This document shows, piece after piece, positions 12,122-42,336 of a DNA stretch of 64,000 nucleotides (positions are counted from its first letter, which is position 1; every line of letters starts with the position of its first letter). Below the pieces are notes generated by a model, which was not told the origin of the DNA, ran no database searches, and saw only the letters and a list, made by a program, of their open reading frames with translations. The stretch is from Cryomorphaceae bacterium 1068. Lineage in GTDB: Bacteria > Bacteroidota > Bacteroidia > Flavobacteriales_D > Cryomorphaceae. A program made the translations under genes and the position numbers. The stretch lies in NCBI GenBank assembly GCA_027214385.1, contig JAPVXR010000016.1:1-64000 (forward strand), read 5' to 3'.

Positions 12122-13693
12122 ATGATGAAAAGAAAGAATTTATCGTGCAGAATGCTATTGATAGTATTTGCACTTACAGCAGTAAACTTTGCAGGGGCAC
12201 AGACTATTGATATTGGGCCAAATGAGTATGCTTTTCAGTTTACCGGCAACCCTAATTTCGGTTTATTTTTTAATGCCACTGATGGAGTTTATGAATTTAA
12301 AAATGGATCGGGAGATGCTGTTTTTGGTATAAAAGGTTCGACTGGAGCGATGACGACTAGTCTCAGTTTTGAGGCAGGTAACGATCTACGCATCTCAGAT
12401 AATAATTATGCATTTCGATCTGCATCAAACCCGAACTATGGCCTCTATTTTAATTCGTCAGTGCTTCAATACCAGTTTCTGAATGGATCATCGACTGCTA
12501 TATTTGCCATTAATGCGAATAACGGTCGATTTGACTCAAACATTCAATTCAACCCGGGAAAGAACCTTTTGGTTGCGCCCGGCAGTTATGCCTTAAGATC
12601 TGCGGCAGCACCTGATGCAGGGATAGTTTTTGGATTAACCGATTATGAGTTCCGTTCTCTTACAGGTGTTCCTGTTTTCAGTGTAAATGTTGCAACGGGA
12701 AATGCAAAATTGACCGGGGGACTTACACTTGGAAGCACAGCTGTTGAAGAGACAGGTAGCATCCGCTACAATGGCGGAGATTTTGAAGGATACGATGGTG
12801 CTTCATGGACTTCATTGACAGAAGGTACTGAAGGCCCCGTTGGTCCGCAAGGTCCTCAGGGAGTGCAAGGTGCACCTGGTGTAGCCGGAATTCAAGGTCC
12901 TGTTGGCCCACAAGGCCCCGCAGGTCTTCTATCCTCGGGGTCGATCAGTGCTGTTCCTTATTTTGATGGTACGAACTGGCAAGTAAGTGCTACCAACCTT
13001 AGCAATAATGGTACTTCCGTTGGAATTGGTAAAAACCCTAGTACAAACGATCGATTGGCTGTTGAAGATTTGGAAGCAACTTCGACTGCTTTTAGAAGTG
13101 TCATAAGAGCTGACAGAACAGGATTGGTAGGCGAGGCCGGAACACTGACGAGCTGGGCGCAAGCGGATGTCGCAATCAGAGGTGCAGTTGACTGGGGTAA
13201 CGCTTATTCTGCAGGTATATACGGAAGTTCAGTGTTGGATTATGCAAATTCTGCAGGTGTGATCGGGTATTATAGTAATTCTGTTTTCGCGGGATTGGCA
13301 TATCGAGATGCAAACAATGATTTCTATGCAGGATACTTCCAAGGCAATGTAGCCGTGAATGGAGAGATCAAGACAAAGTCGGTTAGAGTAACCCTCGATG
13401 GATTTCCTGATTACGTTTTTGAATCGAGTTATGACTTGATGCCACTTTCTGATGTGGAGTCATTTATCCAAGAATACGGTCATCTTCCCAACATGCCTTC
13501 TGAGGCTGAAGTATTGGAAAACGGCCTTGGCTTAGGAGAGATCAATGTGATATTGGTAGAGAAAGTGGAAGAGCTTACGCTTCACTTAATCCAAAAGGAA
13601 AAGGATATGGAGACTCTCTCAAATCAAAACGAGGAGATGAAAGAGCGTTTGGATAAGCTGGAAGCCATTATGAACGAAATGATTTCAGAATAA
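12122..13693 (+). CDS. Secreted fibre-like protein: three 60-aa repeats, collagen-like stretch, coiled-coil tail (copy 1)
   Basis: The 523-aa product has a signal peptide ending AGAQ (~27). Residues 31-198 are three repeats of exactly 60-residue spacing, seen in NEYAFQF (Y36), NNYAFRS (Y96) and GSYALRS (Y156), each followed by N-P-N-[FY]-G-L-[FY]-F and [YF]-x-F-x-N-G. Then comes a FEGYDGASW motif (~221), a collagen-like stretch of ten Gly-x-y triplets (238-268), a region with VGIGKNP, and a C-terminal module (FPDYVFESSYDLMPL, GHLPNMPSEAEV, GEINVILVEKVEELTLHLI) ending in a coiled coil, as in trimeric tail-fibre-like proteins of Bacteroidota. ATG 12122 or 12125 precedes the signal peptide; the frame is open to 12086. 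Its stop codon TAATG overlaps the start of the metallopeptidase gene, implying translational coupling. A paralogue lies at 39185-40795. Confidence 0.85.
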   Translation: MMKRKNLSCRMLLIVFALTAVNFAGAQTIDIGPNEYAFQFTGNPNFGLFFNATDGVYEFKNGSGDAVFGIKGSTGAMTTSLSFEAGNDLRISDNNYAFRSASNPNYGLYFNSSVLQYQFLNGSSTAIFAINANNGRFDSNIQFNPGKNLLVAPGSYALRSAAAPDAGIVFGLTDYEFRSLTGVPVFSVNVATGNAKLTGGLTLGSTAVEETGSIRYNGGDFEGYDGASWTSLTEGTEGPVGPQGPQGVQGAPGVAGIQGPVGPQGPAGLLSSGSISAVPYFDGTNWQVSATNLSNNGTSVGIGKNPSTNDRLAVEDLEATSTAFRSVIRADRTGLVGEAGTLTSWAQADVAIRGAVDWGNAYSAGIYGSSVLDYANSAGVIGYYSNSVFAGLAYRDANNDFYAGYFQGNVAVNGEIKTKSVRVTLDGFPDYVFESSYDLMPLSDVESFIQEYGHLPNMPSEAEVLENGLGLGEINVILVEKVEELTLHLIQKEKDMETLSNQNEEMKERLDKLEAIMNEMISE

Positions 13694-15513
13694 TGAGAGA
13701 GTTAAAAAAATCATTCACCGCAATGGCTTTGCTGCTGGTGCTGGGATTGCTTACGCAATTCTTGCAGGCACAAGAAGTCTTCCGGGGAATTGAAATTAAT
13801 AGTAGTGCTGAGGATCGAGTTTTACTGAATGAGGGTTTTCAATCTTATTCCCTTTTTGAGTTAGACCATGAAGCACTTTATGAATTGGTTGATGCCAACC
13901 GAGAACAGGCCATTTTTACGCTGCAAATAGCAGGGTTCGATTGGCCCATAGAGCTGTATGAAAATGAATTGCGCTCTCCCGGATATTCCGCAGGTCAAAC
14001 AGGCGATGACGGATACAAGGAAGTGATTCAGGGAGAATGTGTCACATTTGCAGGTTACCTCGCTCAAACGAGCAAGGCGGTGCGTTTAAACCTAGAGCCA
14101 AATCGCGTTTGGGGATATGTCACAACGGAAAACGGGGAGTATTTTATCGAACCACTTAATCGATTCATTGATGATGCAAAAGAAGGTGAATACATTCTTT
14201 ACAATGCCGATGATGTAATCGTTTCAGGAGAAGTTTCCTGTGGTGCCGATACTCAATCTGAAAAAGTGAAAAAGTCTCAGCCGTCGCAAGGAGCTCCCAA
14301 AACAGGTGATGATTGCCGCAAGTTGGAGATTGCCACTGAATCGGACTTTGAGGCGTTCAATGCGGGTATCACTTTCAGCGATATTATAGCCAATCTCAAC
14401 CTTGTAGAAGGAATATATACGGCCACTTATGACGTGGAAATCTTTGTGGTTTACCAGCATGAATGGACAACATCTGCTGATCCTTATACCACCACGGAAT
14501 CAGGTTGTGGAGGCTTTGGAACACTCCAGCAAGTCGGGGCAGAATGGCGTACGAATTTCACCAATATCCGCAGAGACATGACTGTATTATACAGCCAAAA
14601 AGACTTCAATAGCAATACCATAGGTTGTGCTTGGATTGGAGTATTTGGGAATGGATCTGAAAATGATGGTGTTTTAAATGGTGAAGGGACCACAGTAGGT
14701 CCCTATAGTGTCAACCAATGGGATTGGCAAGGCGGATCAACCTCAGATGCGAGCAGGAGAACCTTAGTTGCTCACGAGATGGGTCACAATTTCGGAGGGA
14801 CTCATGACTCTAATGGTGGCTGTGCTAACATTATGTGTCCGACTATCAATACAACGACCGTTTTTAATGCAGCGGCTCAGACACAAATGAACGGCAATAT
14901 GAACTTTGAATCTGCCGTAGCCAACGACGGTCGTTCTGCTCTGCGCGAACGCTATTTGAGTGCTGAGGAAGGAGGCGTGTCACTCGCCTTTTTGCCAAGT
15001 ACCAATTCCGCAAATGTTCTTATTCTAGACGGAACGTTGATACCACTTTCATTCTTTTTCGGAACCACTGCACAGTACAACGCTTCAGAAGAAATTCGAA
15101 TGAATCCGGGTGCTTTGATGGAGGCCGGTGTCGATATCAATTTCCAATTTGATATTGCATCGTGCGCTAATGGCGCAATTGTACCAAATGCACAAGATGG
15201 ATCAGGCAGTGGATCAGACAGCGAGCAATTGACAAGTTTGAACCGAGGTAGCAGTGATACCGATGTTATTCTCTATCCGAACCCAACCAGCTCTAATTCT
15301 TTTATCAAGTTGGAATCAGAAAAGGAAGAGCAGATTTTTATAACCATTTTTGATGGTTTGGGACGCGTGGTGGTTCAATCGAATGAATTTCTTGCCGAAG
15401 GAGTCAACGTGATAGAGCTTCAGTCAGAAAACTTGACTCAGGGACTCTACTTCGTAAATCTTAGGATAGCTGAAGGAGAAAGTAAAACACTCAAACTCCA
15501 AAAAATCGACTAA
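13693..15513 (+). CDS. T9SS-secreted reprolysin-like (M12B-type) zinc metallopeptidase
   Basis: The 606-aa precursor has a signal peptide (~1-27, ending LQAQ), a pro-region of about 170 residues, a catalytic domain with the zinc motif HEMGHNFGGTHD (H361, E362, H365, H371) and a Met-turn in CANIMCP, then a linker and a T9SS type A sorting domain (from ~525: VILYPNPTSS, GLGRVV, LTQGLYFVNL) ending TLKLQKID. It should be exported by Sec, then across the outer membrane by T9SS, and released or anchored at the surface. It overlaps the fibre-like gene by one base (TAATG). Substrates are unknown; the partner protein is one candidate (inference). Confidence 0.92.
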   Translation: MRELKKSFTAMALLLVLGLLTQFLQAQEVFRGIEINSSAEDRVLLNEGFQSYSLFELDHEALYELVDANREQAIFTLQIAGFDWPIELYENELRSPGYSAGQTGDDGYKEVIQGECVTFAGYLAQTSKAVRLNLEPNRVWGYVTTENGEYFIEPLNRFIDDAKEGEYILYNADDVIVSGEVSCGADTQSEKVKKSQPSQGAPKTGDDCRKLEIATESDFEAFNAGITFSDIIANLNLVEGIYTATYDVEIFVVYQHEWTTSADPYTTTESGCGGFGTLQQVGAEWRTNFTNIRRDMTVLYSQKDFNSNTIGCAWIGVFGNGSENDGVLNGEGTTVGPYSVNQWDWQGGSTSDASRRTLVAHEMGHNFGGTHDSNGGCANIMCPTINTTTVFNAAAQTQMNGNMNFESAVANDGRSALRERYLSAEEGGVSLAFLPSTNSANVLILDGTLIPLSFFFGTTAQYNASEEIRMNPGALMEAGVDINFQFDIASCANGAIVPNAQDGSGSGSDSEQLTSLNRGSSDTDVILYPNPTSSNSFIKLESEKEEQIFITIFDGLGRVVVQSNEFLAEGVNVIELQSENLTQGLYFVNLRIAEGESKTLKLQKID

Positions 15514-15567
15514 CTGAAAAGCCTGATTGGCTCTTGCAAAAATGATTAGTCGAATATTTGTTTAAGA

Positions 15568-15600
15568 GAAAGGCCACGTCACCGTGGCCTTTCTTTTTTT
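15568..15600 (+). terminator. Rho-independent terminator of the fibre/metallopeptidase operon
   Basis: A perfect 11-bp stem (15568-15578 with 15583-15593) with a 4-base loop is followed by a T-run. Confidence 0.9.
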
Positions 15601-15647
15601 AGGGCTCCATTGTCAATTGTATGACAAGCTATCATGAGAAACTCGGT

Positions 15648-15655
15648 TAATTTTG
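15648..15655 (+). promoter_or_regulatory. -7 promoter element TAATTTTG
   Basis: An exact match to TAnnTTTG lies only 5 bases before the ATG of the AraC-type gene at 15660. If it is used, the transcript would be nearly leaderless, or translation would begin at a later codon. Confidence 0.45.
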
Positions 15656-15659
15656 CCCT

Positions 15660-16481
15660 ATGAAATTCACAGGTCCATCAGGAGAATTTTTTAATGCCTC
15701 AGATCTATCCGCAGCTGATGCCGAGCAGATTACACAGCGCATTCCATCTAGTATGACCTTGCTTTGGTTCACTGAATCGGGCACAGAATTGCTCGTTGAT
15801 GGGAGTGAGCTAAAGCCCGAAGCGGGAACCATGATATGCCTAACGGAATTCCATGCCCTCGTGGTGAAGGCATTCGGCGGAGGTAAGCTGCTGCGCTTCA
15901 ATCGAGACTTCTATTGCATATTAACTCATGATGATGAAGTGAGTTGCAAAGGTTTGCTCTTCTTTGGCGCTTCGCAACTTCCCGTTATTTCACTCGATGA
16001 CACTTACCGCAAGGCTTTTAGTGCACTTTGGGAAGTGATCGAAAACGAAATGTCTGCTACCGATGATCTTCAGATGGAAATGCTGCAGATGCTCACCAAA
16101 CGTTTCTTGATCCTAGCCACGCGAGCCTATAAGGAACAAGTGGACTTTGGTAGTTTGGATAACGATCAAGTGGATCTGATTCGCTCCTTTAACTTCTTAG
16201 TAGAAAAGCATTTCCGCGAAAAACACAAAGTAGCCGATTATGCCAACTTACTATTTAAGTCTCCCAAGACTTTGAGCAATCTTTTTGCAAAAGTCGGCTC
16301 CAAAACACCCTTGGCATACATTCACGAGCGCATTGCTATGGAGGCTCGGCGCAAATTGCGTCACGGTGACGAGAGCGTAAAAGAAATAGCCTTCGACTTA
16401 GGCTTTGATGACTTACAAACGTTTAGCCGCTTTTTCAAACGAATGGAAGGCGTTTCACCCAATACATTCAAGCAGGCTTAA
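15660..16481 (+). CDS. AraC-family transcriptional regulator
   Basis: The 273-aa protein has an N-terminal cupin-like sensor half (residues ~1-150, with RFNRDFYCILTHDDEV) and a C-terminal AraC DNA-binding domain (~175-273). The second helix-turn-helix shows VKEIAFDLGFDDLQTFSRFFKRMEGVSPNTF, the classic AraC signature. Ligand unknown. Flanked by a terminator upstream and the convergent OmpA-like gene 25 bases downstream, so it is transcribed alone. Promoter-like TAATTTTG sits at its start. Confidence 0.92.
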   Translation: MKFTGPSGEFFNASDLSAADAEQITQRIPSSMTLLWFTESGTELLVDGSELKPEAGTMICLTEFHALVVKAFGGGKLLRFNRDFYCILTHDDEVSCKGLLFFGASQLPVISLDDTYRKAFSALWEVIENEMSATDDLQMEMLQMLTKRFLILATRAYKEQVDFGSLDNDQVDLIRSFNFLVEKHFREKHKVADYANLLFKSPKTLSNLFAKVGSKTPLAYIHERIAMEARRKLRHGDESVKEIAFDLGFDDLQTFSRFFKRMEGVSPNTFKQA

Positions 16482-16506
16482 AAAAGTCTTTCCCAAAACG
16501 AACTAT

Positions 16507-18246
16507 TCAGGCATCTAAGCCTTTCAAGAATTTTCGAAATTCACTGAGCTTCATGGGTTGGTATTTTAAGTCTACGGATTCGACGTTTCTCGTTAAAGAG
16601 CGCGCTACTTTAATGGATCCTTCCTCGATTTTATAAGCCACGATGAGAATTTCCTCTTTTCGCGGAAGCGTTAATGACTTATACGATAGTTCTTTATAGT
16701 GCATCATTTGAACCATAGATTTTGATCGAGGTAGGATAGCCATAATTTGTTCTTCTTGATCGACTTCGGGAAGGGTGGCAATGATCTCAAAGCGTTCGTT
16801 TTCAGGAAGCTTTCGAAATCTATCCACATTGATCCACCCCAAATCCGTTCCTGCTATTATGTAAAAATGGGGATTTGCATCAGCGGGAAAACCAAGATTT
16901 TCGAGTACCAATGCATACCGCTCTAACTCGACCTTTCTAATGCTGTCCCAAACGGCAAACTTGGCTTGGTACTTCTTCTTTTGAGCCGCGTCGAGGTATT
17001 GGAATTGGCGCAGGGCTTCTTTCCATTCGTTCTGTTTGAAGTTCTCCATCGAGTTCTCCTTGTCCGCCTGCCATCTGATCAACTTTGCTTCGTATTCCTT
17101 CACCCAAGTGGGGTGTTGTGCAAGTCTTTGATAGTATTTGTCCACATCCTCTGCATACTCCTCGAGTTTCAACTTATAGTCAAGCAGGGCAATTTCGTAC
17201 CTCCGCTGGCAGTCTTTTAGAATTCGATTTCGTGAAAAGAATTGATACCAGCTTATTTTCCTAGCATAGCTCTGAGGTCTTGGTTTTGAAGGTTCAGTGG
17301 GGTATAAGGGTTTACTCGGGTAGCGAGGTTTGGTGTTGTCATCAAAATAAAATTCAGGCCAGTTCACATCAGCATATTCAAACGCAGGGCGTTCAGGGAT
17401 ATTCAAACTCGATCTGGTGAGGAAGTTTTGACCTGTCTCTGCCCAATTCGCACCAGTGTTCGAAACGAATAGAGACATATCTGTTTGCAGAGGAGTTCTC
17501 GATGGTATGGCAATACTTAGGTCAGTTCCATCCGCTAGTTCGAGAGTAGAACCACTTGGAGTCTCTGCTGTAATGCGCAGCATTCCACCTGTTTCGAGCA
17601 AGCGACCATCCGAAACCGTATAAAGTTCGTTGGCGAGAAAATCATGGTAGTCCAATGCCTCAATCACCTTCACATGAACATCGCCTTCATATGGATTTCC
17701 AAGACTATCTACGAATCCATTTGCAGAGATGAACACTTTGGTGCCTCTTTTGCATTTGAGTGTATTGGAAACGGATGGATCAATCATGAAGCTATTCTTT
17801 GCGCTTTCGGCTAATTCCGCGTGCAATTCATCGGTATTCTCAAAGTGAAAACGTTTAAAGACGATGTCGACCCTTCGGTTTTCTCGCATTGACTTCTCGT
17901 CTCTGCTTTTTTGAAGAAGTTGCCTCTTACCAAAGGCCTCCGTGAACAAAAGACCTTTTTGAATTCCTTGATTTTGCAGGTAAGCTCTGACGCTTTCAGC
18001 ACGTTTTTGCGAAAGCTTATAATTGTATTCCTCATCACCTTCGTGATCGGTATGTCCATGAATTTGAAATTCGCAATCACCATTGAGTTCTACGAGTGTC
18101 AAGAAGTCAGAAAGTTGCGCTTTCGCTATATCATCAAGCAGGTGCGAGTCTGAGTCAAAATGAATTCGAGTGGTCTGAATTTCAGGTGCGGCGAAGGTCA
18201 GGACAGCGCATAAAATGGCCGTTCCCATTAAGAATGGAATTTTCAT
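16507..18246 (-). CDS. OmpA-like domain protein with N-terminal OmpA and a large C-terminal domain
   Basis: The 579-aa product starts MKIPFLMGTAILCAVLTFAA, a signal peptide; the frame is open to 18327, but that start would bury the signal. Residues ~27-135 form an OmpA/MotB peptidoglycan-binding domain (IHFDSDSHLLDD, IHGHTDHEGDEEYNYKLSQKRAESVRAYL, NRRVDIVF). OmpA domains are usually C-terminal, so the order is unusual. After it come a ~120-residue beta-rich domain with a Ser/Thr-rich segment, a Pro-rich linker (YPSKPLYPTEPSKPRP), a Lys/Glu/Tyr-rich helical region, and a C-terminal domain I do not recognise. It is likely periplasmic, linking to the cell wall. Confidence 0.8.
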   Translation of the reverse strand: MKIPFLMGTAILCAVLTFAAPEIQTTRIHFDSDSHLLDDIAKAQLSDFLTLVELNGDCEFQIHGHTDHEGDEEYNYKLSQKRAESVRAYLQNQGIQKGLLFTEAFGKRQLLQKSRDEKSMRENRRVDIVFKRFHFENTDELHAELAESAKNSFMIDPSVSNTLKCKRGTKVFISANGFVDSLGNPYEGDVHVKVIEALDYHDFLANELYTVSDGRLLETGGMLRITAETPSGSTLELADGTDLSIAIPSRTPLQTDMSLFVSNTGANWAETGQNFLTRSSLNIPERPAFEYADVNWPEFYFDDNTKPRYPSKPLYPTEPSKPRPQSYARKISWYQFFSRNRILKDCQRRYEIALLDYKLKLEEYAEDVDKYYQRLAQHPTWVKEYEAKLIRWQADKENSMENFKQNEWKEALRQFQYLDAAQKKKYQAKFAVWDSIRKVELERYALVLENLGFPADANPHFYIIAGTDLGWINVDRFRKLPENERFEIIATLPEVDQEEQIMAILPRSKSMVQMMHYKELSYKSLTLPRKEEILIVAYKIEEGSIKVARSLTRNVESVDLKYQPMKLSEFRKFLKGLDA

Positions 18247-18425
18247 TGCAGGAAAATTATTGGTTTCAAATAGAACCCATTTTTTGATGAGATTATTGTG
18301 CGAAGCATCAGTTAAATAACAACACACCTCGAGTGAAGCGGCCCTTGCACTGTCAGTTCATTGTCGGAATAGAAGTGGAAGGATTTCTCTTTGTGAGCTG
18401 GTCTAAGCAAGAGCCGCTTTTTTGA

Positions 18426-18515
18426 AGAAGGGAATAATTGCCAACCCTTAGGGAATTTCTGCCGAGCGTTCTGCGAAGATCTTGCCGCACCTTTGACCTA
18501 TCAACAAACAAAAAC
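18426..18515 (+). promoter_or_regulatory. 90-bp shared promoter element, copy A
   Basis: Matches 29075-29164 without gaps, with about 15 differences in 90 bases. Two blocks are nearly invariant: an upstream block around 18430-18458 holding AATTGCC and GGGAATT in inverted orientation (operator-like), and a core CTTGCCGCACCTTTGACC (18481-18498) whose CACCTTTG resembles the -7 element TAnnTTTG. The sequence between the blocks is poorly conserved, so conservation is of the functional sites rather than of a recent duplication. It lies just before an AhpD-like gene. Confidence 0.7.
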
Positions 18516-18533
18516 TATAAATAACACATCATC

Positions 18534-19082
18534 ATGAACCCATTTACAGTTCCATCTCGAGAAGAAGTTTCAGAATCAAATCAAGCTATTTTCGATAATC
18601 TTCAAAAAGGATTAGGCTTCGTTCCAAATCTGTATGCTTACTACGCAAAAAGTGAAACAGCACTGGGTGACTACCTCCGGTTGCAGAATAGAAAAACCAG
18701 TCTCCGCGCCAAAGAGAAAGAGATTATCAATTTGGTGACAAGCGAAATTAACGGATGCCGCTACTGCCAGTCTGCACACACTGCTATCAGCAAGAACTTA
18801 GGGTTTACCGATGAAGAAATCCTTGATTTCAGAGGGGCTAGCGCTCCTTTTAATGAGAAGTTTGATGCTTTGGCAAAGTTCACCAAGGCAGTAGTAGAGA
18901 ATCGCGGCAACGTTTCCGATTCAGCCAAAGAAGCATTTTTTGCTGCAGGATATACTGAAACGAATTTGATCGATGTAGTGATTGTCGTTGCAGACAAAAC
19001 GATCAGCAATTACATCCACAACTTGGCGGGGTTTGAAATAGACTTCCCACTCGCTCCTCAGCTAGAAGAGGCAGTGGTATAA
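18534..19082 (+). CDS. AhpD-like carboxymuconolactone decarboxylase family protein (peroxidase-related)
   Basis: The 182-aa all-helical cytoplasmic protein has the CxxC-x3-H active-site motif CRYCQSAHT (C75, C78, H82), as in AhpD-type alkylhydroperoxidase-related proteins. These reduce peroxides or similar compounds with a disulfide relay. Full family length; start at the ATG preceded by an A-rich leader. It is transcribed from the shared promoter element also found before the cupredoxin-like gene, which suggests a common stress signal (inference). A terminator follows at 19146. Confidence 0.9.
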   Translation: MNPFTVPSREEVSESNQAIFDNLQKGLGFVPNLYAYYAKSETALGDYLRLQNRKTSLRAKEKEIINLVTSEINGCRYCQSAHTAISKNLGFTDEEILDFRGASAPFNEKFDALAKFTKAVVENRGNVSDSAKEAFFAAGYTETNLIDVVIVVADKTISNYIHNLAGFEIDFPLAPQLEEAVV

Positions 19083-19145
19083 AAATAAAGCGGTTTCATC
19101 TTCACCGTTCTCAAACAGGATGATTGGTTAATATTGGTTAGGTAA

Positions 19146-19173
19146 AGACCCCTTCAAACGAGAAGGGGTTTTT
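19146..19173 (+). terminator. Rho-independent terminator after the AhpD-like gene
   Basis: An 8-bp stem (19148-19155 with 19162-19169) with a 6-base loop is followed by T-rich sequence. Confidence 0.75.
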
Positions 19174-19326
19174 GCGTTTTGCTAAATAAAGTCTTTCGAA
19201 TACAAATTGGAAGAACCAAATGGTGCGTTGAGAAACCTTCTCAGTCCGGTTTTATGAGCCGAGTATGATCTACTTCTTAGATTTCTTAGCTTCAAACCTC
19301 TTCATTAATTTCATTTTCTTTGAGCC

Positions 19327-20724
19327 ATGAAATTGGAGTATTCTAATCGACTGTCCGTAATAGGCGGTTATACAATCCTCATTATACTGGCCATCTTTGG
19401 AGCCCACTACGCTCTAATTAGATTTACGGCTTTCGATGCTGCTTACTACCTTTTTCAAATTGCAGAAGGCAAAGATTTCTTCGTCGCCCACGGCCGCCAT
19501 ATATCCTATTTTGCCCAATGGCCAGCAGTCATAGCAGCTAATTTGGGCATTCCCATGAAACTGCTTTTGCCGATAGCGTCTCTCGGATATTCTCTTTTCT
19601 TCATTCTCAACTATTACTTTGCTGTCAGGTTCAAAACGAAAGAAAACCTTTATTGGCTCGTAGTATTTCTTCCTCTTCTCGCACTTAGGTTTAAGTTCTA
19701 CAGCCCGATTAGCGAATCGATTATGTCCTTGGCGAGCATTAGCTTGTTTTATGTGGTGATGGACAATGCTACGCAAGCGTTTTCCAAGAAGAAATGGGTT
19801 TTTTTATTTCTAATCGCAATCACCATATACATAGGTCACCCGCTGGCATTTATGGGCCTCTTCATTATGATTTTTTTTCATGCCTTTTGGCATGGAGATT
19901 ATCTGAATAAAACGCGGCTTTATGCAATGGGAATCGCCACAGCATTTTTTGTCGCCAAAATGATTTCCGTGCAGTCGAGTGGTTATGAATCAGAAAAACT
20001 AGGGGATGCCACATCCAATCTTTCAAAACTATTCTCGGCAAGAAATCACTGGGTTTACCTTGATCTCGACGATTGGATAATAGCTGAGTGTTTTTGGCCT
20101 CTTATCACTTTTATTGGGGCTATCCTCTTATTGGTTTACCGGAAACGAATTATTCCTGCTGCATTTTTAATCCTGACTTTTGTGGCCATAAAGCATATCA
20201 TCACCTTCGTTTATTGGGAGGGTGAAACACCCAATATGTTGCACAGTTATTACGCATACTTAAGTATTCCATGGTCTCTTGGAATTATTTATGCAGCATC
20301 ATTTATACCAAAGAAGGGCTTTGTACTTGGGTTCTATTTATGCTTATGCATCCAAAGTATTTGGGAAATAAGAGAGGAGCGTACTTTTTTTCAAGATCGG
20401 CTGGCTTATTTCGACTCCATTTTTGATGTGTACCCTGAAAACCGAAAACAAATCCTTCCCGAAGTCAAATTGGAAATGGAGAAAGTGCATTTAACCTGGG
20501 CTATTCCATTTGAAACAATGATTTACACTAGCTATAGCGATCCCCGAGATGCAAAGACGCTCTTTATCAATAGATGGATGGAGGGCGATGAACACCTTTT
20601 GAAATCAGAAGAAAATCCCGCTGTTTTTCTGGGTGCTCCTTGGTATCATTATGAAATCGAAAATAGTGCAGAGCTCAATCCTGATTATTTTATTCTTCCG
20701 CCGGAACCATATATCATGCATTAG
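19327..20724 (+). CDS. Polytopic membrane protein of unknown function
   Basis: The 465-aa protein has roughly ten to eleven hydrophobic segments between residues 10 and 350, then a ~115-residue soluble C-terminal tail. The first loop contains FDAAYYLFQIAEGKDF, and further loops have LRFKFYSPISE and IGHPLAFMG. The acidic first loop and overall layout recall GT-C-type membrane glycosyltransferases, but no diagnostic motif can be confirmed. Stands alone; the neighbouring genes give no clue. Confidence 0.75.
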   Translation: MKLEYSNRLSVIGGYTILIILAIFGAHYALIRFTAFDAAYYLFQIAEGKDFFVAHGRHISYFAQWPAVIAANLGIPMKLLLPIASLGYSLFFILNYYFAVRFKTKENLYWLVVFLPLLALRFKFYSPISESIMSLASISLFYVVMDNATQAFSKKKWVFLFLIAITIYIGHPLAFMGLFIMIFFHAFWHGDYLNKTRLYAMGIATAFFVAKMISVQSSGYESEKLGDATSNLSKLFSARNHWVYLDLDDWIIAECFWPLITFIGAILLLVYRKRIIPAAFLILTFVAIKHIITFVYWEGETPNMLHSYYAYLSIPWSLGIIYAASFIPKKGFVLGFYLCLCIQSIWEIREERTFFQDRLAYFDSIFDVYPENRKQILPEVKLEMEKVHLTWAIPFETMIYTSYSDPRDAKTLFINRWMEGDEHLLKSEENPAVFLGAPWYHYEIENSAELNPDYFILPPEPYIMH

Positions 20725-20882
20725 TATTTCCTGTTCATGCTTTTAAGTTTAAGAGAATACTTTCTGAATCGGGGTTATCCTTTGGTTAAGCTCCCTCTAT
20801 TGAAGTCCACTTACCCAGACCGGTGAATCGTGGCAGATTCGGAAATAAATTTCGAATCAAGCCGGAGTTTTAAGTAGCCTTG

Positions 20883-20890
20883 TATATTTG
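20883..20890 (+). promoter_or_regulatory. -7 promoter element TATATTTG
   Basis: A perfect TAnnTTTG match. It overlaps the first possible TTG codon (20880) of the next frame, which argues that translation starts downstream, at GTG 20913. Confidence 0.5.
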
Positions 20891-20912
20891 GCCAACATTT
20901 GCGCTTACTAGA

Positions 20913-22694: not shown

Positions 22695-23048
22695 ACCTTG
22701 AAAGCACATTTTCGAGTCGAATGATTCGACCAAAATCCTTTTACCGAATTGTCACTTCGAGTGATTTACGACTTAGGAGTGAATCGTATCGAGAACAGCC
22801 TACGGGTAAAACTGTCTTCGAAAGACTTCTCGATTACCTTCCATCGTTCGGTGAGATTGCCTCCCTCAGAGTATCGGCGCTAGGTTCATTTCATCTTCGT
22901 GTCTCAGATGAAACCATTGAATCAATAAGCTTTGTCAGTTCGGTTGATCCGACGGAGGAGGATGGTGTTGAGAACACGTCCTGATTTTCATTTCAGGTCG
23001 CTAGCACCCGTTCTGTGAAAGATTTTTGTGCCATCAAGTTCACAAACG
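22695..23048. other. Intergenic region with palindrome and repeated box
   Basis: Contains the perfect 15-base palindrome GTCGAATGATTCGAC (22716-22730) just after the stop of the upstream regulator, and a box GTCCTGATTTTCA (22979-22991) repeated at 23928-23940 before the next promoter. GATTTTTGTGCC near 23026 resembles a -7 element. A frame of 87 codons at 22721-22984 is open but has no recognisable domain and starts inside the palindrome; I do not call it a gene. Confidence 0.5.
22979..22996 (+). promoter_or_regulatory. Repeated box GTCCTGATTTTCA, copy 1
   Basis: This box lies ~53-70 bases upstream of the ATG at 23049. A near-identical box at 23928-23945 lies upstream of the next gene, so both promoters may share a regulator. 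Confidence 0.35.
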
Positions 23049-23945: not shown

Positions 23946-24044
23946 AGTCTGGAAATGAAAATCGGGTCGTGCAGCTTCTGACATCGCCGCACTTTTGCCT
24001 CGATAAATAAAACGACTGAATAACAACTTTTAATACAAACTAAA

Positions 24045-26139: not shown

Positions 26140-26148
26140 ATAGACCGT

Positions 26149-30613: not shown

Positions 30614-30666
30614 TATTTCTGTTTTTACAAGTTCACAAAAGCTAAGATAGCTCAGAATATTTACGC

Positions 30667-31512: not shown

Positions 31513-31565
31513 AATTAACCAGTCGATAGGTCTTGAAGCTCTTCGATTATTAAACTCATCCAGGC

Positions 31566-35018: not shown

Positions 35019-35228
35019 AGTACTTTTTTAGAAAACCGAAATATAGGACCAATTTATTATTGGATCATAAAGAGAATGTAATGCAGAATTATGAAACGGA
35101 CGGACATCAAATTTAAATACACACATCCTTACCAAAGACCAATAATTTTTCAGTTATCTCCATTTAAGCCGGTTTTTATTTCAGCACCAATCGCCCGTTT
35201 TAATTGAGGATTTCAAGAAAGGCACACT

Positions 35229-35870
35229 TTACTTCACCAATCCCTCTCTTAAGGCTACGGCCACCGCGCCAGCGCTAGATTGCACCTTCAGCTTTCCATA
35301 AATCTTCGTGATGTGGCTATTTACCGTAGGGTAGGAGATGTGGCATTCCTCGGCGATCATCTTGTAGCTAAACCCTTTTACGAGAAGATTGAGAATCTCA
35401 GACTCTCGCTTGGTGAGATCAAAGTTGTTTCCCTTTTTTGAAGAGCCTTGTTTTTGGAACAGCTTGAGAACCTTAGCGGCAATAACAGGGGTCATCGGAG
35501 CGCCACCAACGAGTACCTCGCGAATTCCGTCGACTAGCTTCATGGGATTTGCCTGTTTTAAGATATACCCATCTGCACCTGCACAAATGGCTGCAAAGAT
35601 TTTATCATCATCTTCAAAAACGGTTTGCATGAGTATTTTCAGATCTGGATGAACCTTTCGAATTTCAAGTACTCCTTCTATTCCGTTTACATGTGGCATA
35701 TCAATATCCATCAGCACCACATCCGGATTAGATGATTCAATATCGGCAAGTACATTTCTGCAATCGTTGTAAAGGCCTACGCAATTTAAATCATCGATGG
35801 TCTCGAGCAGAAGAAAAAGTCCTTCACGCCGCTCAAGATTGTCATCAAATATGGCTACACGTGTTTTCAC
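35229..35870 (-). CDS. NarL/LuxR-type response regulator
   Basis: The 213-aa protein (GTG start at 35868-35870) has an N-terminal receiver with phospho-acceptor D55 in VVLMDIDMPHVNG and acidic pocket D9-D10 (AIFDDN), and a C-terminal LuxR-type HTH (LTKRESEILNLLVKGFSYKMIAEECHISYPTVNSHI, about 151-186). It is 44 bases downstream of the sensor kinase on the same strand, so the two form a two-component pair. The neighbouring divergent fibre/metallopeptidase operon is a candidate target (inference). Confidence 0.95.
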   Translation of the reverse strand: MKTRVAIFDDNLERREGLFLLLETIDDLNCVGLYNDCRNVLADIESSNPDVVLMDIDMPHVNGIEGVLEIRKVHPDLKILMQTVFEDDDKIFAAICAGADGYILKQANPMKLVDGIREVLVGGAPMTPVIAAKVLKLFQKQGSSKKGNNFDLTKRESEILNLLVKGFSYKMIAEECHISYPTVNSHITKIYGKLKVQSSAGAVAVALREGLVK

Positions 35871-35914
35871 AGTTTAAAATTCGCATTGTTTTGCGATCAT
35901 TCCTATCGTTGAAA

Positions 35915-38900
35915 CTAATGATTTGTGGGAACTTTTAAGTTTACCACTGTTCCAGTCTGAAGGTCGGAGGAAACTTCCAATTGACCTTTGATTCGCTCTG
36001 CTCTTCTTTTCATTCCTGCAAGTCCGTTTCCGCCTGATGAACGTCTGGGAGGATTTGCAAGGTCAAATCCTTTTCCGTCATCACTTATGGTAAGGATCAG
36101 TTTACCCGTTTTCACTACAAGTCGAATCTGCATTTCAGTAGCTTCGGAATACTTGGCAGCATTGTTTACCGCCTCTTTAAAAATTAGGTAGATCTCTTTT
36201 CTCTTGTCCATTCCAAGCTTTACCCTTTCTACAGCAGACTGAGAGTTAAAGTCAAGCTTTATACCTTTGGCTTCAGTCATTTCAGCAGCGAACGCGCGCA
36301 TTCTATTTACGACTTGTTCCATGCTGTCATTGTCCGATTTGATGGTCCATACCATATCATTCATCTTCTCCATGATACTTGACACATTGGTAATAATTCT
36401 ATCCAAGACAGGTTGGCTCTTAGGAGAAAGATCCTTCTCATTCGATTTCATCACCGCGCTGTAGAGAGAGATACTGCTCAGTGTTGAGCCGATCTCGTCG
36501 TGAAGGTCTTGGGCTATTTGGTTGCGCATTCGTTCTACTCGAAGGAGTTGGTTAAGACGGTAGCGGTAAAGGCTGTAGAATATACCGACTACAAATACTA
36601 AGATTAGGGCTCGGAACCACCAAGTGGCCCACCAAGGTGGGAGGACCTTAATTTTCAAGGTGCGAGCTATTTGGCTCCAGTTGCCCAGACTATTTCTACC
36701 CAGTACTTCGAATGTGTAATTTCCGGGGTCGAGATTGGTGTAAGTAGCTTCCCTAATATTCTTGGTCTCAATCCACTCATCATTCAAACCATTTAATCGA
36801 TACTTATAGGATTGTTTGGACCAATCCCCAAAATCAATTAAACCAAAACCGACGGTTATCATACTCTGATCATAGTTCAGAACAATTTCTTCCGTTAATT
36901 CGAATGGTTTTTGCAAAGTGAATTTTTCACCTACGTTTTCTGCTAAATACCCAATAGGTTCGTTGAAAATCCGCAGCTCACCTAAAACGACACCCGAGTG
37001 TGTCGTATCTGATATGAAGTCTTTTGGACCGAGAGAAGTGGTGCCTTCAATGCCTCCGAAGAATAGTCTCCCTTGGTCATCTTTAGAATATTGAAAACGG
37101 TTGAACTCATTTCCGTTAAGTCCATCAAATTTGGTGAATGTTTTAAACTGATTTTCGCGAGGATTGAATTGAGCCAAGCCGTAGTTTGTACTGAGCCATA
37201 AATTGCCATAGTTGTCAGGGAGGATGCCATTAACAAAGTTGTTTACAAGCCCGTTCTTTATCCCGTAAGATTTGATAGAATCAGTTGAGTAGTCAAGAGA
37301 ATGCAAACCTGAGCTTGTGGCAATCCATAGACGCTTTTCAGGCAGTTCAGGGTCTTTACAAATCGACAAGACATTGGCGCTACGTAAACCACTTTCTGTG
37401 TTGTAAATCTTCCACTCTTCGCTCGCAACGTTGTATACCATTAATCCTTGTCGGGTAGCGAACCAGATCCTATTCGGATATTCTGCCAAGTAGTCCTGGA
37501 TAAAGCGTTCTTGATCAATTTGTTTGACCTCTGGAAAGGGAGTTACGCTTAAGACGCTCGTTTCTGATCCCGTCTTCACCAGTGAATACTTATCCCCATC
37601 TTTAGCAACTAAATAAATGCTGTCATTCTGCCAATGAATGGCATTCAATACGTAATTGTAATTCGTGAGGTTTGTTTTGAGGGAGTCGTAATTGTCGTCC
37701 TCATCGGGGTATAGTTTATATCTGTAAAGAGATTGGCCGACGTCAACGGTGTCGGAATAGAACCAGATGTAATTTTCATCATCCGTAAACGGGAAGAAAG
37801 ACCTCGACAACTTACTTCGTTCTTTTGCCTTCGCCAGTCTTTTATTCTCGGGATTTTGCCAAGCCCTATAGACATTACTGGAATAATGGGCTCTCTTTTC
37901 AGGCATTTCTATTCTCAAACCCCAGCAAGGGTGTGTAGTTTTTATGGTATGTCTGGCAAAGCGTATATGGTTGACAGATAATTTGCCCAAGCCATGACCA
38001 CCTGAGGTTAGCCATATATTACCCGTTTTATCTTCAAATCTAAAACTCATGTTTCTGCTATCAGAACTCAATCGATAGATCTGAGATGACTGAAGCGAAT
38101 CCCATTTTTCCAAATGGCCTTCACCAAAATTCAGCCATAGATTGTTTTTATTATCAATGAATTTGGAAGCTTTATTCCAATTGGTAGCAGCTTGTGGAAA
38201 TATCAGTTGAAGATTAGGGCTTCTGTTATTCCATTTAAAAATACCAGTACCCGAGACGTCAATATAAACCTCTCCCGGTTCAGCGTTTTCAAAAAATTTA
38301 ATGGATTGATCGGCAGGGAAGATATCAGATAAATCAACTGTCTGATGAACTGTAGGTTCTAATCCATTATGTGGTTCGAAGACTGTCAATCTTTGGGCCG
38401 AATCAACGGAGAAAAACATACCATTTGAAGAAAAGTACCACGAATAGCTATTCTTTCCATTGGATCTTTTTAAGCACTTGAGAAAGTGATTAATTATTTC
38501 AGATCCATTCTCGAAGCTATTTTCAAATGGAATTCCAACGAATGGTAGTTCTTGCTCAGTGCTCAGGTTATTAACAACTACCACATACGATTTGTCGAGA
38601 TGAAATCGAGAAGTTCCTACCAATAAACTATCCGTAGACCATAGTCTGCCAGGCTCTTGAATTCTCTTTCCGTCTTGATCAAAGATTTCAATGAAGCCTT
38701 CAATTGATGGATTGAAATAACATAGCCCATCGTTTTGTGTGGATACCCAAAGTCGTTTTTCCTTGTCTATGAATAGATCAACTATATAGTCACCTGGTAA
38801 TGTAAACGGGGTTTGGTCATCATTCTTGAATTGTTTAAAAGAATTCCCGTCAAACCTGTTTAAACCTCCTTTGGTGCCGACCCATATATAACCCTTCTCA

Positions 38901-39061
38901 TCCTGAATCACAGAAGTAACCAAACTTTGTGATAGCCCGTCTTCAATACCATAAATCTCAAAGGAGAGATTGAGAGTATCAAACAAGCCAGACTCGGTTT
39001 GGGCGGTAGTGACCTTAGATAAACAGATTAGGAAGAAAAGGAGACTAAATGCTCTGGACAT
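35915..39061 (-). CDS. Sensor histidine kinase with two-component-propeller sensor domain
   Basis: The 1048-aa protein starts MSRAFSLLFFLICLSKVTTAQ, a signal/anchor peptide; an upstream ATG at 39101-39103 would add 14 residues. Residues ~25-700 are two-component propeller repeats (GLSQSLVTSVIQDEKGYIWVGTKGGLNRFDG is the hallmark first blade). A Y_Y_Y domain follows (~730-790), then one membrane helix (~807-827), a HisKA_3 dimerisation domain with phosphoacceptor H854 (QDLHDEIGSTLSSI), and a C-terminal HATPase (DDGKGFD, GGNGLAGMKRR). It is a periplasmic ligand sensor, not a hybrid: its receiver is the separate regulator downstream. It is divergent from the second fibre gene, 123 bases away. Confidence 0.94.
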   Translation of the reverse strand: MSRAFSLLFFLICLSKVTTAQTESGLFDTLNLSFEIYGIEDGLSQSLVTSVIQDEKGYIWVGTKGGLNRFDGNSFKQFKNDDQTPFTLPGDYIVDLFIDKEKRLWVSTQNDGLCYFNPSIEGFIEIFDQDGKRIQEPGRLWSTDSLLVGTSRFHLDKSYVVVVNNLSTEQELPFVGIPFENSFENGSEIINHFLKCLKRSNGKNSYSWYFSSNGMFFSVDSAQRLTVFEPHNGLEPTVHQTVDLSDIFPADQSIKFFENAEPGEVYIDVSGTGIFKWNNRSPNLQLIFPQAATNWNKASKFIDNKNNLWLNFGEGHLEKWDSLQSSQIYRLSSDSRNMSFRFEDKTGNIWLTSGGHGLGKLSVNHIRFARHTIKTTHPCWGLRIEMPEKRAHYSSNVYRAWQNPENKRLAKAKERSKLSRSFFPFTDDENYIWFYSDTVDVGQSLYRYKLYPDEDDNYDSLKTNLTNYNYVLNAIHWQNDSIYLVAKDGDKYSLVKTGSETSVLSVTPFPEVKQIDQERFIQDYLAEYPNRIWFATRQGLMVYNVASEEWKIYNTESGLRSANVLSICKDPELPEKRLWIATSSGLHSLDYSTDSIKSYGIKNGLVNNFVNGILPDNYGNLWLSTNYGLAQFNPRENQFKTFTKFDGLNGNEFNRFQYSKDDQGRLFFGGIEGTTSLGPKDFISDTTHSGVVLGELRIFNEPIGYLAENVGEKFTLQKPFELTEEIVLNYDQSMITVGFGLIDFGDWSKQSYKYRLNGLNDEWIETKNIREATYTNLDPGNYTFEVLGRNSLGNWSQIARTLKIKVLPPWWATWWFRALILVFVVGIFYSLYRYRLNQLLRVERMRNQIAQDLHDEIGSTLSSISLYSAVMKSNEKDLSPKSQPVLDRIITNVSSIMEKMNDMVWTIKSDNDSMEQVVNRMRAFAAEMTEAKGIKLDFNSQSAVERVKLGMDKRKEIYLIFKEAVNNAAKYSEATEMQIRLVVKTGKLILTISDDGKGFDLANPPRRSSGGNGLAGMKRRAERIKGQLEVSSDLQTGTVVNLKVPTNH

Positions 39062-39184
39062 GTGTGGAAATAACATCAACTCCGTAAAGTAATGACAATG
39101 CAATGAATCATAAAATCATTGGAATCAATGATTGATTAAATAGTTACTCAGCCTCACTTTTACCAAAAAATTAAATCCAACAAA
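39062..39184. other. Divergent promoter region between sensor kinase and fibre gene
   Basis: A 123-base AT-rich gap separates the minus-strand kinase from the plus-strand fibre gene. CACTTTTACC (39152-39161) is a weak -7-like sequence for the rightward gene. ATCATTGG/CAATGATT-like inverted sequence near 39112-39130 is suggestive of an operator but imperfect. Confidence 0.35.
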
Positions 39185-40795
39185 ATGAAGGCAATAGTAA
39201 CCAATCGAATTTTTACCATAGTTGCAGTAGTGGTTTTTGCGTTTAGCGCTAAGGCTCAAACAAGTAATATTGGCCCAAACCAATACGCGTTCCAATTCAC
39301 AGGCGATCCTGATTTCGGGCTATACTTTAATGCCGACGATAGCCGATATGAATTTTTGAATGGCTCAGCAACACCGATTTTCGGCTTTAGCGCTGGCTCT
39401 GGCCAAATGACGACTAACCTTCAGTTTAGTCCAAGTTCGGATTTGCTGATTGGCAATAATCGATATGCTTTCCGCGCGGCGAGCAATCCGAATTTTGGTC
39501 TTTTGTTTAGTTCTACCAGTACCGAATATCAATTCTTAAATAACTCCGCGGAGCCTATTTTTGCAATTAATGCCAATACAGGTCGGTATGCTTCCGATAT
39601 ACGATTTAATTCAGGCAAGGGCGTGTTAGTGGATCCTAATACCTACGCTTTACGATCTGCAGTAGTTCCTGATGCGGGTTTTTACTTTGGTGGTCCTGAT
39701 TTTGAGATACGCGGTTTGACGGGCGCCCCGATGATGAGGATTAATACGTCTTCAGGGAACACGGTTATTGCGGGAAGCCTAAAACTGGGAGACGGTGGCT
39801 TGGAAGAAGAAGGTGCCATTCGCTATGTAAGCGGTGAATTTGAGGGCTATGACGGCTCGATTTGGAAAAATTTATCCCAAATCGGTAGCGGCTCAAGTCT
39901 TTGGAGTCAAAATGGAGCTGATGCTTTCTATACAGCGGGTAATGTTGGAATTGGGACATCTACACCTTTGGAGAAGTTAACACTAGAGAGCGGAGAAGGT
40001 GAAAATGCGGCTTTTGGTGTGTATAGAGGTACGAAACGAGTTGCTTTTATAGGGGATGGCTCTGGAGGAGGAGAAACTGGGACAATCTATCTAGGAAACA
40101 ATGAAGGCATAACTACACACCGTTTTTTGGCTAATGGAGGAGCAAACTATATCAATGCCGGTAATCTCGGGATAGGTACCACTTCTCCTTCTGCACCCTT
40201 AGATATTGAAAGTGAAAATGGGAATATGCTGGAAGTCAGAAACCCTACAGGGGGCACCAGTTATCAGGATTTTTACTCCGGGACAAATGGCCAGCTGACT
40301 GTTGGTCTAGTCGGAGGTGGAAACGGCGAACAAGTTGGACAAGCCATTTTTTGGAATCGGAAAAATGCGCGCTTGAATTTTGGCACCAACAATCAAGCGC
40401 GTATGACTATAAGGAATAATGGTAATGTGGGAATAGGCACTGAGACACCAAATGCCAAGTTTCACGTAATTGGTGATGCGTACATAGATGGTAAGGTCTG
40501 GGGACGAGAAGTAGAGGTAACCCTGGCTTCCTTTCCTGATTACGTTTTCAAGGCAGATTACGACTTGATGAGTCTTTCTGAAGTGGATGCCTTTATCCAA
40601 GAAAACGGTCACCTACCCAATATGCCTACCGAAGCAGAAGTAGTGGAAAACGGCCTGAACCTGGGAGAGATGAATGTGAAGCTAGTAGAGAAAGTAGAAG
40701 AGCTAACCCTTCACTTGATTGAGAAGGAGAAGCAGTACGAAGCATTGCAGTCGCGATTGGAGATGCTCGAAAAAGCTATTCTAAACCAAGACTAA
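39185..40795 (+). CDS. Secreted fibre-like protein with three 60-aa repeats (copy 2)
   Basis: The 536-aa product has a signal peptide ending AKAQ (~25). The three repeats have the same exact 60-residue period as in copy 1: NQYAFQF (Y34), NRYAFRA (Y94) and NTYALRS (Y154), each followed by D/N-P-[DN]-F-G-L or the third-unit form VPDAGFYF. Then FEGYDGSIW (~219) and, instead of the collagen-like stretch, three VGIGT-type units (GNVGIGTSTP, GNLGIGTTSP, GNVGIGTETP). The C-terminal FPDYVFKADYDLMSL, GHLPNMPTEAEV and GEMNVKLVEKVEELTLHLIEKEK coiled-coil tail is shared with copy 1. It is followed 56 bases later by a T9SS metallopeptidase, as copy 1 is by its own. The divergent two-component system lies upstream. 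Confidence 0.85.
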   Translation: MKAIVTNRIFTIVAVVVFAFSAKAQTSNIGPNQYAFQFTGDPDFGLYFNADDSRYEFLNGSATPIFGFSAGSGQMTTNLQFSPSSDLLIGNNRYAFRAASNPNFGLLFSSTSTEYQFLNNSAEPIFAINANTGRYASDIRFNSGKGVLVDPNTYALRSAVVPDAGFYFGGPDFEIRGLTGAPMMRINTSSGNTVIAGSLKLGDGGLEEEGAIRYVSGEFEGYDGSIWKNLSQIGSGSSLWSQNGADAFYTAGNVGIGTSTPLEKLTLESGEGENAAFGVYRGTKRVAFIGDGSGGGETGTIYLGNNEGITTHRFLANGGANYINAGNLGIGTTSPSAPLDIESENGNMLEVRNPTGGTSYQDFYSGTNGQLTVGLVGGGNGEQVGQAIFWNRKNARLNFGTNNQARMTIRNNGNVGIGTETPNAKFHVIGDAYIDGKVWGREVEVTLASFPDYVFKADYDLMSLSEVDAFIQENGHLPNMPTEAEVVENGLNLGEMNVKLVEKVEELTLHLIEKEKQYEALQSRLEMLEKAILNQD

Positions 40796-40851
40796 TCATG
40801 ATTGATAAGGAAAACCTTTCCTATCATTTTATTCACTAAAACATTTCAATC

Positions 40852-42336
40852 ATGAAAAATAGAATAGTACATAGTTGGCCAATACTGGTGATGGCACTAT
40901 TGGTTTCCTTATTCCCTCACTTGGCGGAAGCCCAAGAGGGGTGTAGAACTCAATTTCGAAATCAAGCAGAAACAGCTGCCTATGCAGAACGGCATAAAAA
41001 CTTCCTGCAGAATAGGGACGAAGCTAAAAGTTCCATTTCAGAAACGAAATTCATCCCGGTTCATTGGCATTTTGCTGATGGGATAGCTTGGTCACCTCCA
41101 TATAGCGAGGCAAGAGCTGCATTAGCAAGGGCCAATAATGCATTTTCGGAAACGAATATTCGATTTTATGAATGTGGTACCAGCGTTATCGGTGCTAATT
41201 GGTACTCATTTGAATCCGAATCCGAAGAGGGTGCAATGATTAATACGCATAACATCGCGGGAGTTCTTAATGTTTATGTCGTTAATGAAATCGAAGACGG
41301 GGGTTGTGGATATGCAAACTTTCCAGGTACCGATCCTCCTAATAGCAATAACGGAAATAATTTTGTGGTGATGGATATTGATTGCATGGACGAAGACGGA
41401 GACACAACTCTAGAACATGAGTTTGGACATATTTTTGACCTGGCACATACCCATGAAACAGCATGGGGCCAAGAGTTGGTCACTAGAACCGGGCCTACGG
41501 CCAACTGCACTTCAACAGGTGATCGATTTTGTGACACACCTGCAGATCCTAATATAAGTGGCGATGTATCATCAAGCTGTGTTTACACAGGAGGTGGTGC
41601 AGATGCCAATGGAGATAGCTATGTTCCTTCTACTTCAAACATAATGTCCTACAGCAGGAAAGAGTGCCGAACCGATTTTACTCCTTCACAAATCGCGAAA
41701 ATGAACTATTCTGTTTCTCCTAATGGTGACCCTGATCGCAACAGCTTAACCTGTGCAAGTTGCTCTACAATTGATTTAGATGCTCTTTTGCCACTTAACT
41801 TTCCAATTGTCGGATTCATCGTTTCATCTTATTTATTGGATGGGGAAATATTCAGCAATGTGAATATAACTGAATCTAATTCGACAGGAGATAATTTGGT
41901 TTTGGTATCCACAGAGAGGGTAGTCCTTACGCCTGGTTTCTCTTTTAGTTCCGTGAATAACCCATCAATGAATTTTTATGCCGTAGTTGATGAATGCGGT
42001 GGTGGAGGAGCAGCTTTGACAGATCAAGGAACTGATACCGATGATAATTCATTTCTAGCAAATCATCATGCGTTTAATACAGAATTCAATAAGGTCTATC
42101 CTAATCCAACATCAGGTTTGGCATTTATGGAAGTCAGTGTTTTCAAAGAAACTGTGATTACCATTCGTGTTATAGATGCCCTTGGACGACAAGTGATGGC
42201 TGAAGTGAGAGGTTTGTCAAAAGGTGAGAATACAGTTCAGCTCAACACTGAAACCTTGAATCAAGGCCTGTACCTAATCAACATTTCAGATGTGCACGGC
42301 TTGAACCAAACCCTCAAACTCCAGAAAATCGACTAA
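40852..42336 (+). CDS. T9SS-secreted pappalysin-like (M43B-type) zinc metallopeptidase
   Basis: The 494-aa precursor has a signal peptide (~1-27, ending AEAQ), a short N-terminal pro-region, and an M43B-like catalytic domain with CGYANFPGT, the zinc motif HEFGHIFDLAHTH (H189, E190, H193, H199), CDTPADPN, and a Met-turn region SNIMSYSRKECRTDFTPSQIAKM. Residue D196 stands where the family motif HExxHxxGxxH has Gly. A T9SS type A sorting domain follows (from ~415: KVYPNPTSGLAFMEV, GLYLINISD) ending TLKLQKID, the same last eight residues as the enzyme at 13693. Downstream partner of the fibre-like gene in module copy 2. Confidence 0.9.
   Translation: MKNRIVHSWPILVMALLVSLFPHLAEAQEGCRTQFRNQAETAAYAERHKNFLQNRDEAKSSISETKFIPVHWHFADGIAWSPPYSEARAALARANNAFSETNIRFYECGTSVIGANWYSFESESEEGAMINTHNIAGVLNVYVVNEIEDGGCGYANFPGTDPPNSNNGNNFVVMDIDCMDEDGDTTLEHEFGHIFDLAHTHETAWGQELVTRTGPTANCTSTGDRFCDTPADPNISGDVSSSCVYTGGGADANGDSYVPSTSNIMSYSRKECRTDFTPSQIAKMNYSVSPNGDPDRNSLTCASCSTIDLDALLPLNFPIVGFIVSSYLLDGEIFSNVNITESNSTGDNLVLVSTERVVLTPGFSFSSVNNPSMNFYAVVDECGGGGAALTDQGTDTDDNSFLANHHAFNTEFNKVYPNPTSGLAFMEVSVFKETVITIRVIDALGRQVMAEVRGLSKGENTVQLNTETLNQGLYLINISDVHGLNQTLKLQKID

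Follow-up and report, generated by a model that had tools for sequence, protein, structure and literature searches.

A recurrent two-gene module: genes for a fibre-like protein and for a metallopeptidase with a T9SS sorting domain in Cryomorphaceae bacterium 1068

Two genes for fibre-like proteins, F1 and F2, lie in the first 64,000 nucleotides of contig JAPVXR010000016.1 of Cryomorphaceae bacterium 1068 (assembly GCA_027214385.1); this whole stretch is referred to as the window. Each is followed directly by a gene for a zinc metallopeptidase, M1 or M2, that carries a sorting C-terminal domain (CTD) of the type IX secretion system (T9SS). The fibres are related and the enzymes belong to different families. 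What, then, keeps a fibre beside a peptidase when the peptidase itself changes? A first-pass annotation, made from the sequence alone, proposed a duplicated functional unit unlike any named system. The analysis presented here makes it nearly certain that the pair is a real and recurrent two-gene module. It is apparently unnamed: no description of such a system, and no paper on the fibre-partner pairing, was found in the open-access literature.

The pairs and their copies in the genome

Genes were called as longest open reading frames (ORFs) and secretion signals were assessed by eye. Each pair consists, as first annotated, of a fibre gene and then a T9SS zinc metallopeptidase gene, with the following parts:

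12122-13693, plus strand: F1, fibre gene, with a signal-like N-terminus, three repeats of ~60 residues, a collagen-like stretch, a variable middle and a coiled-coil tail
12200-12742, plus: F1 repeat domain (fibN), three units of five beta strands (profile; AlphaFold2 model, mean predicted local distance difference test score, pLDDT, 88.5)
12824-12925, plus: F1 collagen-like Gly-X-Y stretch, residues 235-268 (PF01391, E 5e-5, below its cut-off)
13337-13690, plus: F1 C-terminal tail, PDYVF...HLPNMPS...EKVEELTLH and a coiled coil (profile; model pLDDT 86.8, helix of ~50 residues)
13693-15513, plus: M1, T9SS metallopeptidase, M12B/reprolysin-like, with the motif HEMGHNFGGTHD (domain search)
14332-14892, plus: M1 catalytic domain (PF13688, domain search)
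15271-15510, plus: M1 T9SS type A sorting domain, ending TLKLQKID (PF18962, TIGR04183)
39185-40795, plus: F2, fibre gene (sequence comparison with F1)
39257-39799, plus: F2 repeat domain (alignment, profile)
40466-40792, plus: F2 C-terminal tail (profile)
40852-42336, plus: M2, T9SS metallopeptidase, M43/pappalysin-like, with the motif HEFGHIFDLAHTH (domain search)
41263-41712, plus: M2 catalytic domain (PF05572, domain search)
42094-42333, plus: M2 T9SS type A sorting domain, ending TLKLQKID (domain search)
42375-42398, plus: strong hairpin resembling an intrinsic terminator at the end of the F2-M2 unit (10 pairs, 6 of them GC, and a T run)

The F1 and M1 genes overlap by one base, and 56 bases separate F2 from M2. 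The F2-M2 gap (40796-40851) forms a long hairpin (-13.5 kcal/mol, z -3.7), which may control the ratio of fibre to peptidase; in the genome's other pairs the two genes are hardly separated at all.

The assignment of the enzymes to two families held up. M1 is M12B/reprolysin-like (PF13688, 6e-13, 49.8 bits against a cut-off of 27, with an extended HExxH zinc motif) and M2 is M43/pappalysin-like (PF05572, 2e-12, 47.8 bits, cut-off 23). Both carry Por_Secre_tail and TIGR04183 matches, at 42.5 and 43.6 bits in M1 and 41.1 and 35.4 bits in M2 (curated cut-offs 27 and 23). Searches with the same two profiles found no CTD in F1 or F2. No Peptidase_S74 match was obtained at E 0.1 (Pfam) in any of the four fibres of the genome, and Rfam matched nothing in the window.

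F1 and F2 are paralogues with common repeats and a common tail, as had been proposed: their first ~228 residues are 54% identical and their tails 61%. The middles are unrelated, with a short collagen-like stretch in F1 and GIGTxxP repeats in F2. The two enzymes were reported to share their last eight residues, TLKLQKID. That octapeptide does occur only twice in the whole genome, at the ends of M1 and M2, but the shared end is really the last ~147 residues, the only part over which the two align well. Among the genome's CTDs, at least 150 in number, the best match of the M1 CTD is that of M2 (61 bits; next 35). The simplest reading of the sequences is that the catalytic part was swapped while fibre, linker and CTD were retained. 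As enzymes M1 and M2 are ordinary family members; their catalytic domains with a CTD are usual for T9SS-dependent M12B/M43 metallopeptidases and Mep72. The pairing is the unusual part.

The module is duplicated, although not merely twice. Two further full pairs, for a total of four, are present in the genome (G000; 4.32 Mb in 59 contigs):

L014, minus strand: pair C1, fibre 6543-8291, peptidase 4691-6562
L015: pair C3, fibre 5223-6983, peptidase ~6991 to 8814

The peptidases of C1 and C3 are of a third, mutually related kind, called here the M34 type. A T9SS zinc metallopeptidase thus lies directly 3' of all four full-length fibre genes, an arrangement with a chance probability of ~3e-11 (assuming ~3,700 genes). 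The converse does not hold. The genome matches four Reprolysin_4 and six M43 enzymes (10 M12B/M43 in all), and the six unpaired ones, unlike M1 and M2, adjoin unrelated genes with no such fibre upstream; a fibre tied to every T9SS peptidase is therefore ruled out.

The constant tail and the exchangeable partner

At the profile threshold, the repeat domain is confined to one GTDB family, namely G000, G001 (metagenome-assembled genome ALOHA_ZT_11), G003 (T3Sed10_241) and G006 (CSSed162cmB_560), with a weaker match in one fibre of family f46. Within the GTDB family two architectures occur. Where the repeats are joined to a tail and the next gene can be read, that gene is a T9SS metallopeptidase in 8/8 cases, two of them tandem pairs in G003. 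Two tail fragments in G006, their upstream parts lost at contig ends, also precede a T9SS metallopeptidase, which makes 10/10 in the family; the swapped enzyme in a conserved pairing is thus borne out. The ninth gene of this architecture (L087) precedes an ORF that looks secreted and is interrupted by the contig end. The second architecture, repeats without a tail, is found in seven proteins (L082, L085, four in L086, and L089), six of which have a T9SS CTD of their own and none of which is followed by a peptidase. Four of these genes stand in tandem at L086 90-10423, three with a CTD and none with a tail. Since the tail-less repeat proteins are unpaired and mostly have a CTD, the tail with its partner and the protein's own CTD look like alternatives.

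The first-pass annotation had proposed to examine the genes next to homologues of the N-terminal domain, and for tail-bearing members that check is strongly positive. The pairing nevertheless follows not the N-terminal repeats but the C-terminal tail, a 'HLPNxP plus coiled coil' element. Its profile matches 93/355 genomes in the order and, in the class, 186/396 of those sampled. The loci examined were chosen by their tail score and not randomly, and CTDs were counted with a somewhat conservative profile built from this genome. In the order sample 93/94 next genes share the strand of the tail gene, mostly within a few tens of bases of it, and 52/94 have a T9SS CTD. Without the family's own cases the count is 42/83, compared with 49/616 other genes (p 9e-20) and 5/81 upstream genes (p 4e-13). 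Other orders of the class give 24/43 for non-tandem next genes as against 12/214 (p 1e-13), and 17 tail genes there directly precede another tail gene. By NCBIfam, 26/39 class-level partners have a type A CTD.

What the partner does varies widely. Pfam finds Por_Secre_tail in 42/46 order-level partners, along with S8, M4, trypsin-like, tyrosinase and BNR domains; the 39 class-level partners include reprolysin (5), M4 (3), cellulase (2) and S8 (1). CTD-less partners in the order sample are mostly lipoproteins, either Cys-rich/PKD-like ones of ~270 residues or ones of ~170 residues, and are more mixed elsewhere; 23 partners are lipoproteins. A metallopeptidase as universal partner was accordingly dropped on the order-level sample. 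On the tree of tails the partner classes cluster strongly, with 33 changes where shuffling gives 65, and 4 where it gives 21 if only T9SS and lipoprotein partners are distinguished; inheritance alone would likewise produce such clustering.

The same link is seen from the side of the enzyme. The homologues nearest to M1 in the class sample come from families f21, f46 and f33 (42%, 38% and 31% identity), and each lies immediately 3' of a tail gene, giving 4/4 with M1 itself versus 0/14 among more distant reprolysin matches. The M1-type partner in f21 is 39% identical to M1 over 485 residues. Its fibre has a tail 51% identical to that of F1 and, in the part seen, no repeat domain by profile; f21 tails are the nearest or among the nearest to those of F1 and F2 outside the genome. 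A tail from another family whose partner is an M1-type enzyme is nearer to the F1 tail than are the tails of the other two fibres of the genome. An M34-type homologue in f22 is likewise preceded by a tail gene, unlike a more distant homologue in f62, and tail and M34-type peptidase distances match (r 0.76, permutation p 0.0004, 8 pairs). Head and tail thus have histories that are in part separate, and it is with the tail that the enzyme goes.

Fibre fold and relation to known systems

The repeats of ~60 residues are real, and a fibre character is supported: the model of the domain, of good confidence, has three units of five short strands each. Its top PDB matches in Foldseek are phage fibres, those of Mu (5yvq, E 0.003), T4 gp34 and T5 pb4, and VIA adds the Bdellovibrio fibre Bd3182 (8ojn, 8onb). 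The scores are weak and the model is of a monomer; the best matches are trimeric fibres, and this fibre is probably a trimer too. In the PDB, phmmer with F1 returned a single match, a collagen chain. The repeat profile gave a lectin-like haemagglutinin chain at E 0.035, a weak hit ascribed to chance.

The tail is modelled as a small helical domain continuing into a helix of ~50 residues. It had no PDB match with E <= 0.001 (VIA best Z 3.7). An S74 identity is not supported: Pfam gave no match, nor did the PDB by sequence or, at that threshold, by fold. The best structural match, a plausible one, is BFVD A0A5J6VKV2, a 719-residue protein of a Megaviridae environmental sample (probability 1.00, E 0.025). 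The tail domain is also C-terminal in virion-type proteins of IMG/VR contigs, one of which adjoins a tail-sheath gene matching T4 gp18 (3e-39). Neither tail nor repeat domain was matched in annotated phage genomes (INPHARED collection for the tail); the phage link of the tail therefore rests on the IMG/VR contigs, one of them checked through the sheath gene.

The fibres resemble the phage tail fibres named above in their repeated, short-stranded beta structure, collagen-like stretch and dedicated C-terminal end, and in the occurrence of the tail domain beside a sheath gene. They differ in that the protein is bacterial, by its signal-like N-terminus secreted, is paired with T9SS cargo and has no recognised virion genes nearby. 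The mosaic adhesive trimer (MAT) fibres of Bdellovibrio (PMC10769870) are likewise chromosomal, bacterial, phage-fibre-like surface fibres with exchangeable parts, and Bd3182 is among the best, if weak, matches of the repeat domain. The MAT superfamily is marked by a conserved, beta-rich N-terminal domain of ~130 residues after the signal peptide; its N-terminus is invariant and its C-terminus variable, whereas here the C-terminal tail is constant and the head varies. An S74 match is lacking here, and a dedicated downstream partner gene, present here, goes unmentioned in the passages on MAT consulted. In T9SS type B/SprF-PorP pairs such as SprB-SprF (PMC12618676, PMC9143113), a surface adhesin and its cognate partner for placement are likewise encoded by adjacent genes. 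There it is the adhesin that bears the CTD, of type B, and a PorP/SprF-like shuttle serves as its partner, whereas here the fibre has no CTD and the neighbouring gene, a peptidase and not PorP/SprF-like, bears the type A CTD.

A putative display mechanism and its alternatives

Each pair may be viewed as a two-gene cassette. The first gene would encode a phage-tail-fibre-like surface fibre, probably trimeric, built of an exchangeable head (here the ~60-residue beta repeats), an exchangeable shaft and the conserved tail; it has a Sec-type N-terminus, and no anchor of its own was found. The second gene, adjoining or overlapping the first and probably on the same message, would supply the surface address; this is a type A CTD of the T9SS, replaced in other lineages by a lipid anchor. 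The two products would be made together, exported by Sec and then meet, and the partner would grip the fibre tail so that both are placed at the surface together. Labour would be split, the fibre providing reach and binding or aiming, and the partner activity; with a zinc peptidase as partner, the assembly would keep hold of a target and cleave proteins that the target carries. The scheme presumes that the tail docks on its partner, that both lie at the surface and that there is a substrate. That a surface fibre is held by, and aims, an interchangeable anchored partner is given about an even chance.

The docking site might be the '3-coathanger stack' (GCX_COOH, NF045639) of the partner, a candidate and no more. 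The stack is found in 18/46 order-level and 18/39 class-level partners (36/85), and in 7/7 tested M34-type peptidases versus 0/29 other T9SS proteins of the genome; NF045639 was used since a home-made regular expression proved too strict.

Several observations weigh against the tethered-fibre scheme. Some tail genes have no anchored partner, standing in tandem arrays or before small secreted or beta-barrel-looking proteins, and three have no same-strand neighbour. In another order, a head-to-tail array of 15 tail genes (L217 1388-15218) contains none that is followed by a T9SS protein. The stack is present in less than half of the partners; M1 gives only a weak, sub-threshold score of 18 bits, and for M2 none was reported. 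Its background is small, 29 proteins of one genome. The structural matches of the fibre are weak as well (Foldseek best E 0.003; VIA Z below 5).

A wider version, less likely than not, can also be entertained. It would make the module a display system found throughout the class in Bacteroidota: T9SS cargo or a lipoprotein would export a phage-fibre-like trimer that lacks a CTD, or tether it non-covalently, through a dedicated tail-partner contact, with enzymes and heads freely recombined. Such a system would amount to a trans-acting T9SS adaptor. If the tail does bind the partner, proteins without a T9SS signal would have a way of getting to the surface or remaining there, partners could be predicted for hundreds of unannotated genes, and a modular means of placing enzymes on a binding fibre would be at hand. 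Phage-type fibres would also have a second, differently built use as bacterial surface tools.

The strongest alternative is that fibre and enzyme are co-regulated but independent exoproteins, an adhesin and an enzyme useful on the same substrate that do not bind each other. The regulators adjoining several pairs (divergent from F2, upstream of the C3 and L087 fibres, and after M1) fit such an arrangement, as does the wide range of partner functions. Co-regulation alone leaves unexplained why it is the tail, not the head, that accompanies the partner, why close M1 homologues in other families have a tail gene directly upstream, and why a repeat protein that itself has a CTD goes without tail and partner alike. 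It is rated somewhat unlikely.

In a second alternative the peptidase matures or sheds the fibre by cleaving it or its tail after export, akin to the self-removal of S74 from phage fibres. S74 self-cleavage can process MAT and phage fibres (PMC10769870), and a peptidase adjoins every readable tail-bearing fibre gene of the family. The first-pass annotation had offered maturation as one role of the peptidase; as a general rule it fails, because most partners outside the family are other T9SS proteins or lipoproteins. Few of the 46 order-level partners have a peptidase domain, 23 partners are lipoproteins, and three peptidase types serve closely related fibres. Maturation is rated improbable.

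A third alternative, that an ancestral pair of genes was passively duplicated and that nothing ties the two functionally, would account for four pairs in one genome, for the tandem pairs in G003 and for the matching tail and M34-type distances. It is disfavoured by the neighbour counts, by the pairing kept across distant families with different heads, and by catalytic parts that differ between M1 and M2 where tail and CTD are common to both pairs; we regard it as very unlikely. A prophage or tailocin remnant, suggested by the phage-like fibre folds and the occurrence of the tail domain in phages, is scarcely credible given the Sec-type N-termini, the T9SS partners and the absence of recognised phage structural genes around any of the four pairs.

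The genes beside the pairs are as follows. A Reg_prop/Y_Y_Y sensor kinase gene (35915-39076, minus) is divergent from F2, with a LuxR-type response regulator gene at 35229-35711, and an AraC gene lies 3' of M1 at 15660-16481. Hybrid sensor-regulator genes are upstream of the C3 fibre (L015 962-4984) and the L087 fibre (L087 2517-6632). The presence of regulators beside the pairs suggests induction by a substrate. Directly 3' of the F2-M2 unit, a tight row of genes (42680-45061) encodes an amidase-like protein, SH3-like at its end, and two further small proteins; by eye it looks like a separate lysis-type cluster. N-terminal of the M1 catalytic domain, residues 129-176 (window 14077-14220) match part of an ADAM17 entry in the PDB (E 4e-6). 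Elsewhere in the genome, at L016 5876-8126, a tail remnant of 64 residues is followed by a gene for a Cys-rich lipoprotein, and a similar second lipoprotein gene lies further on.

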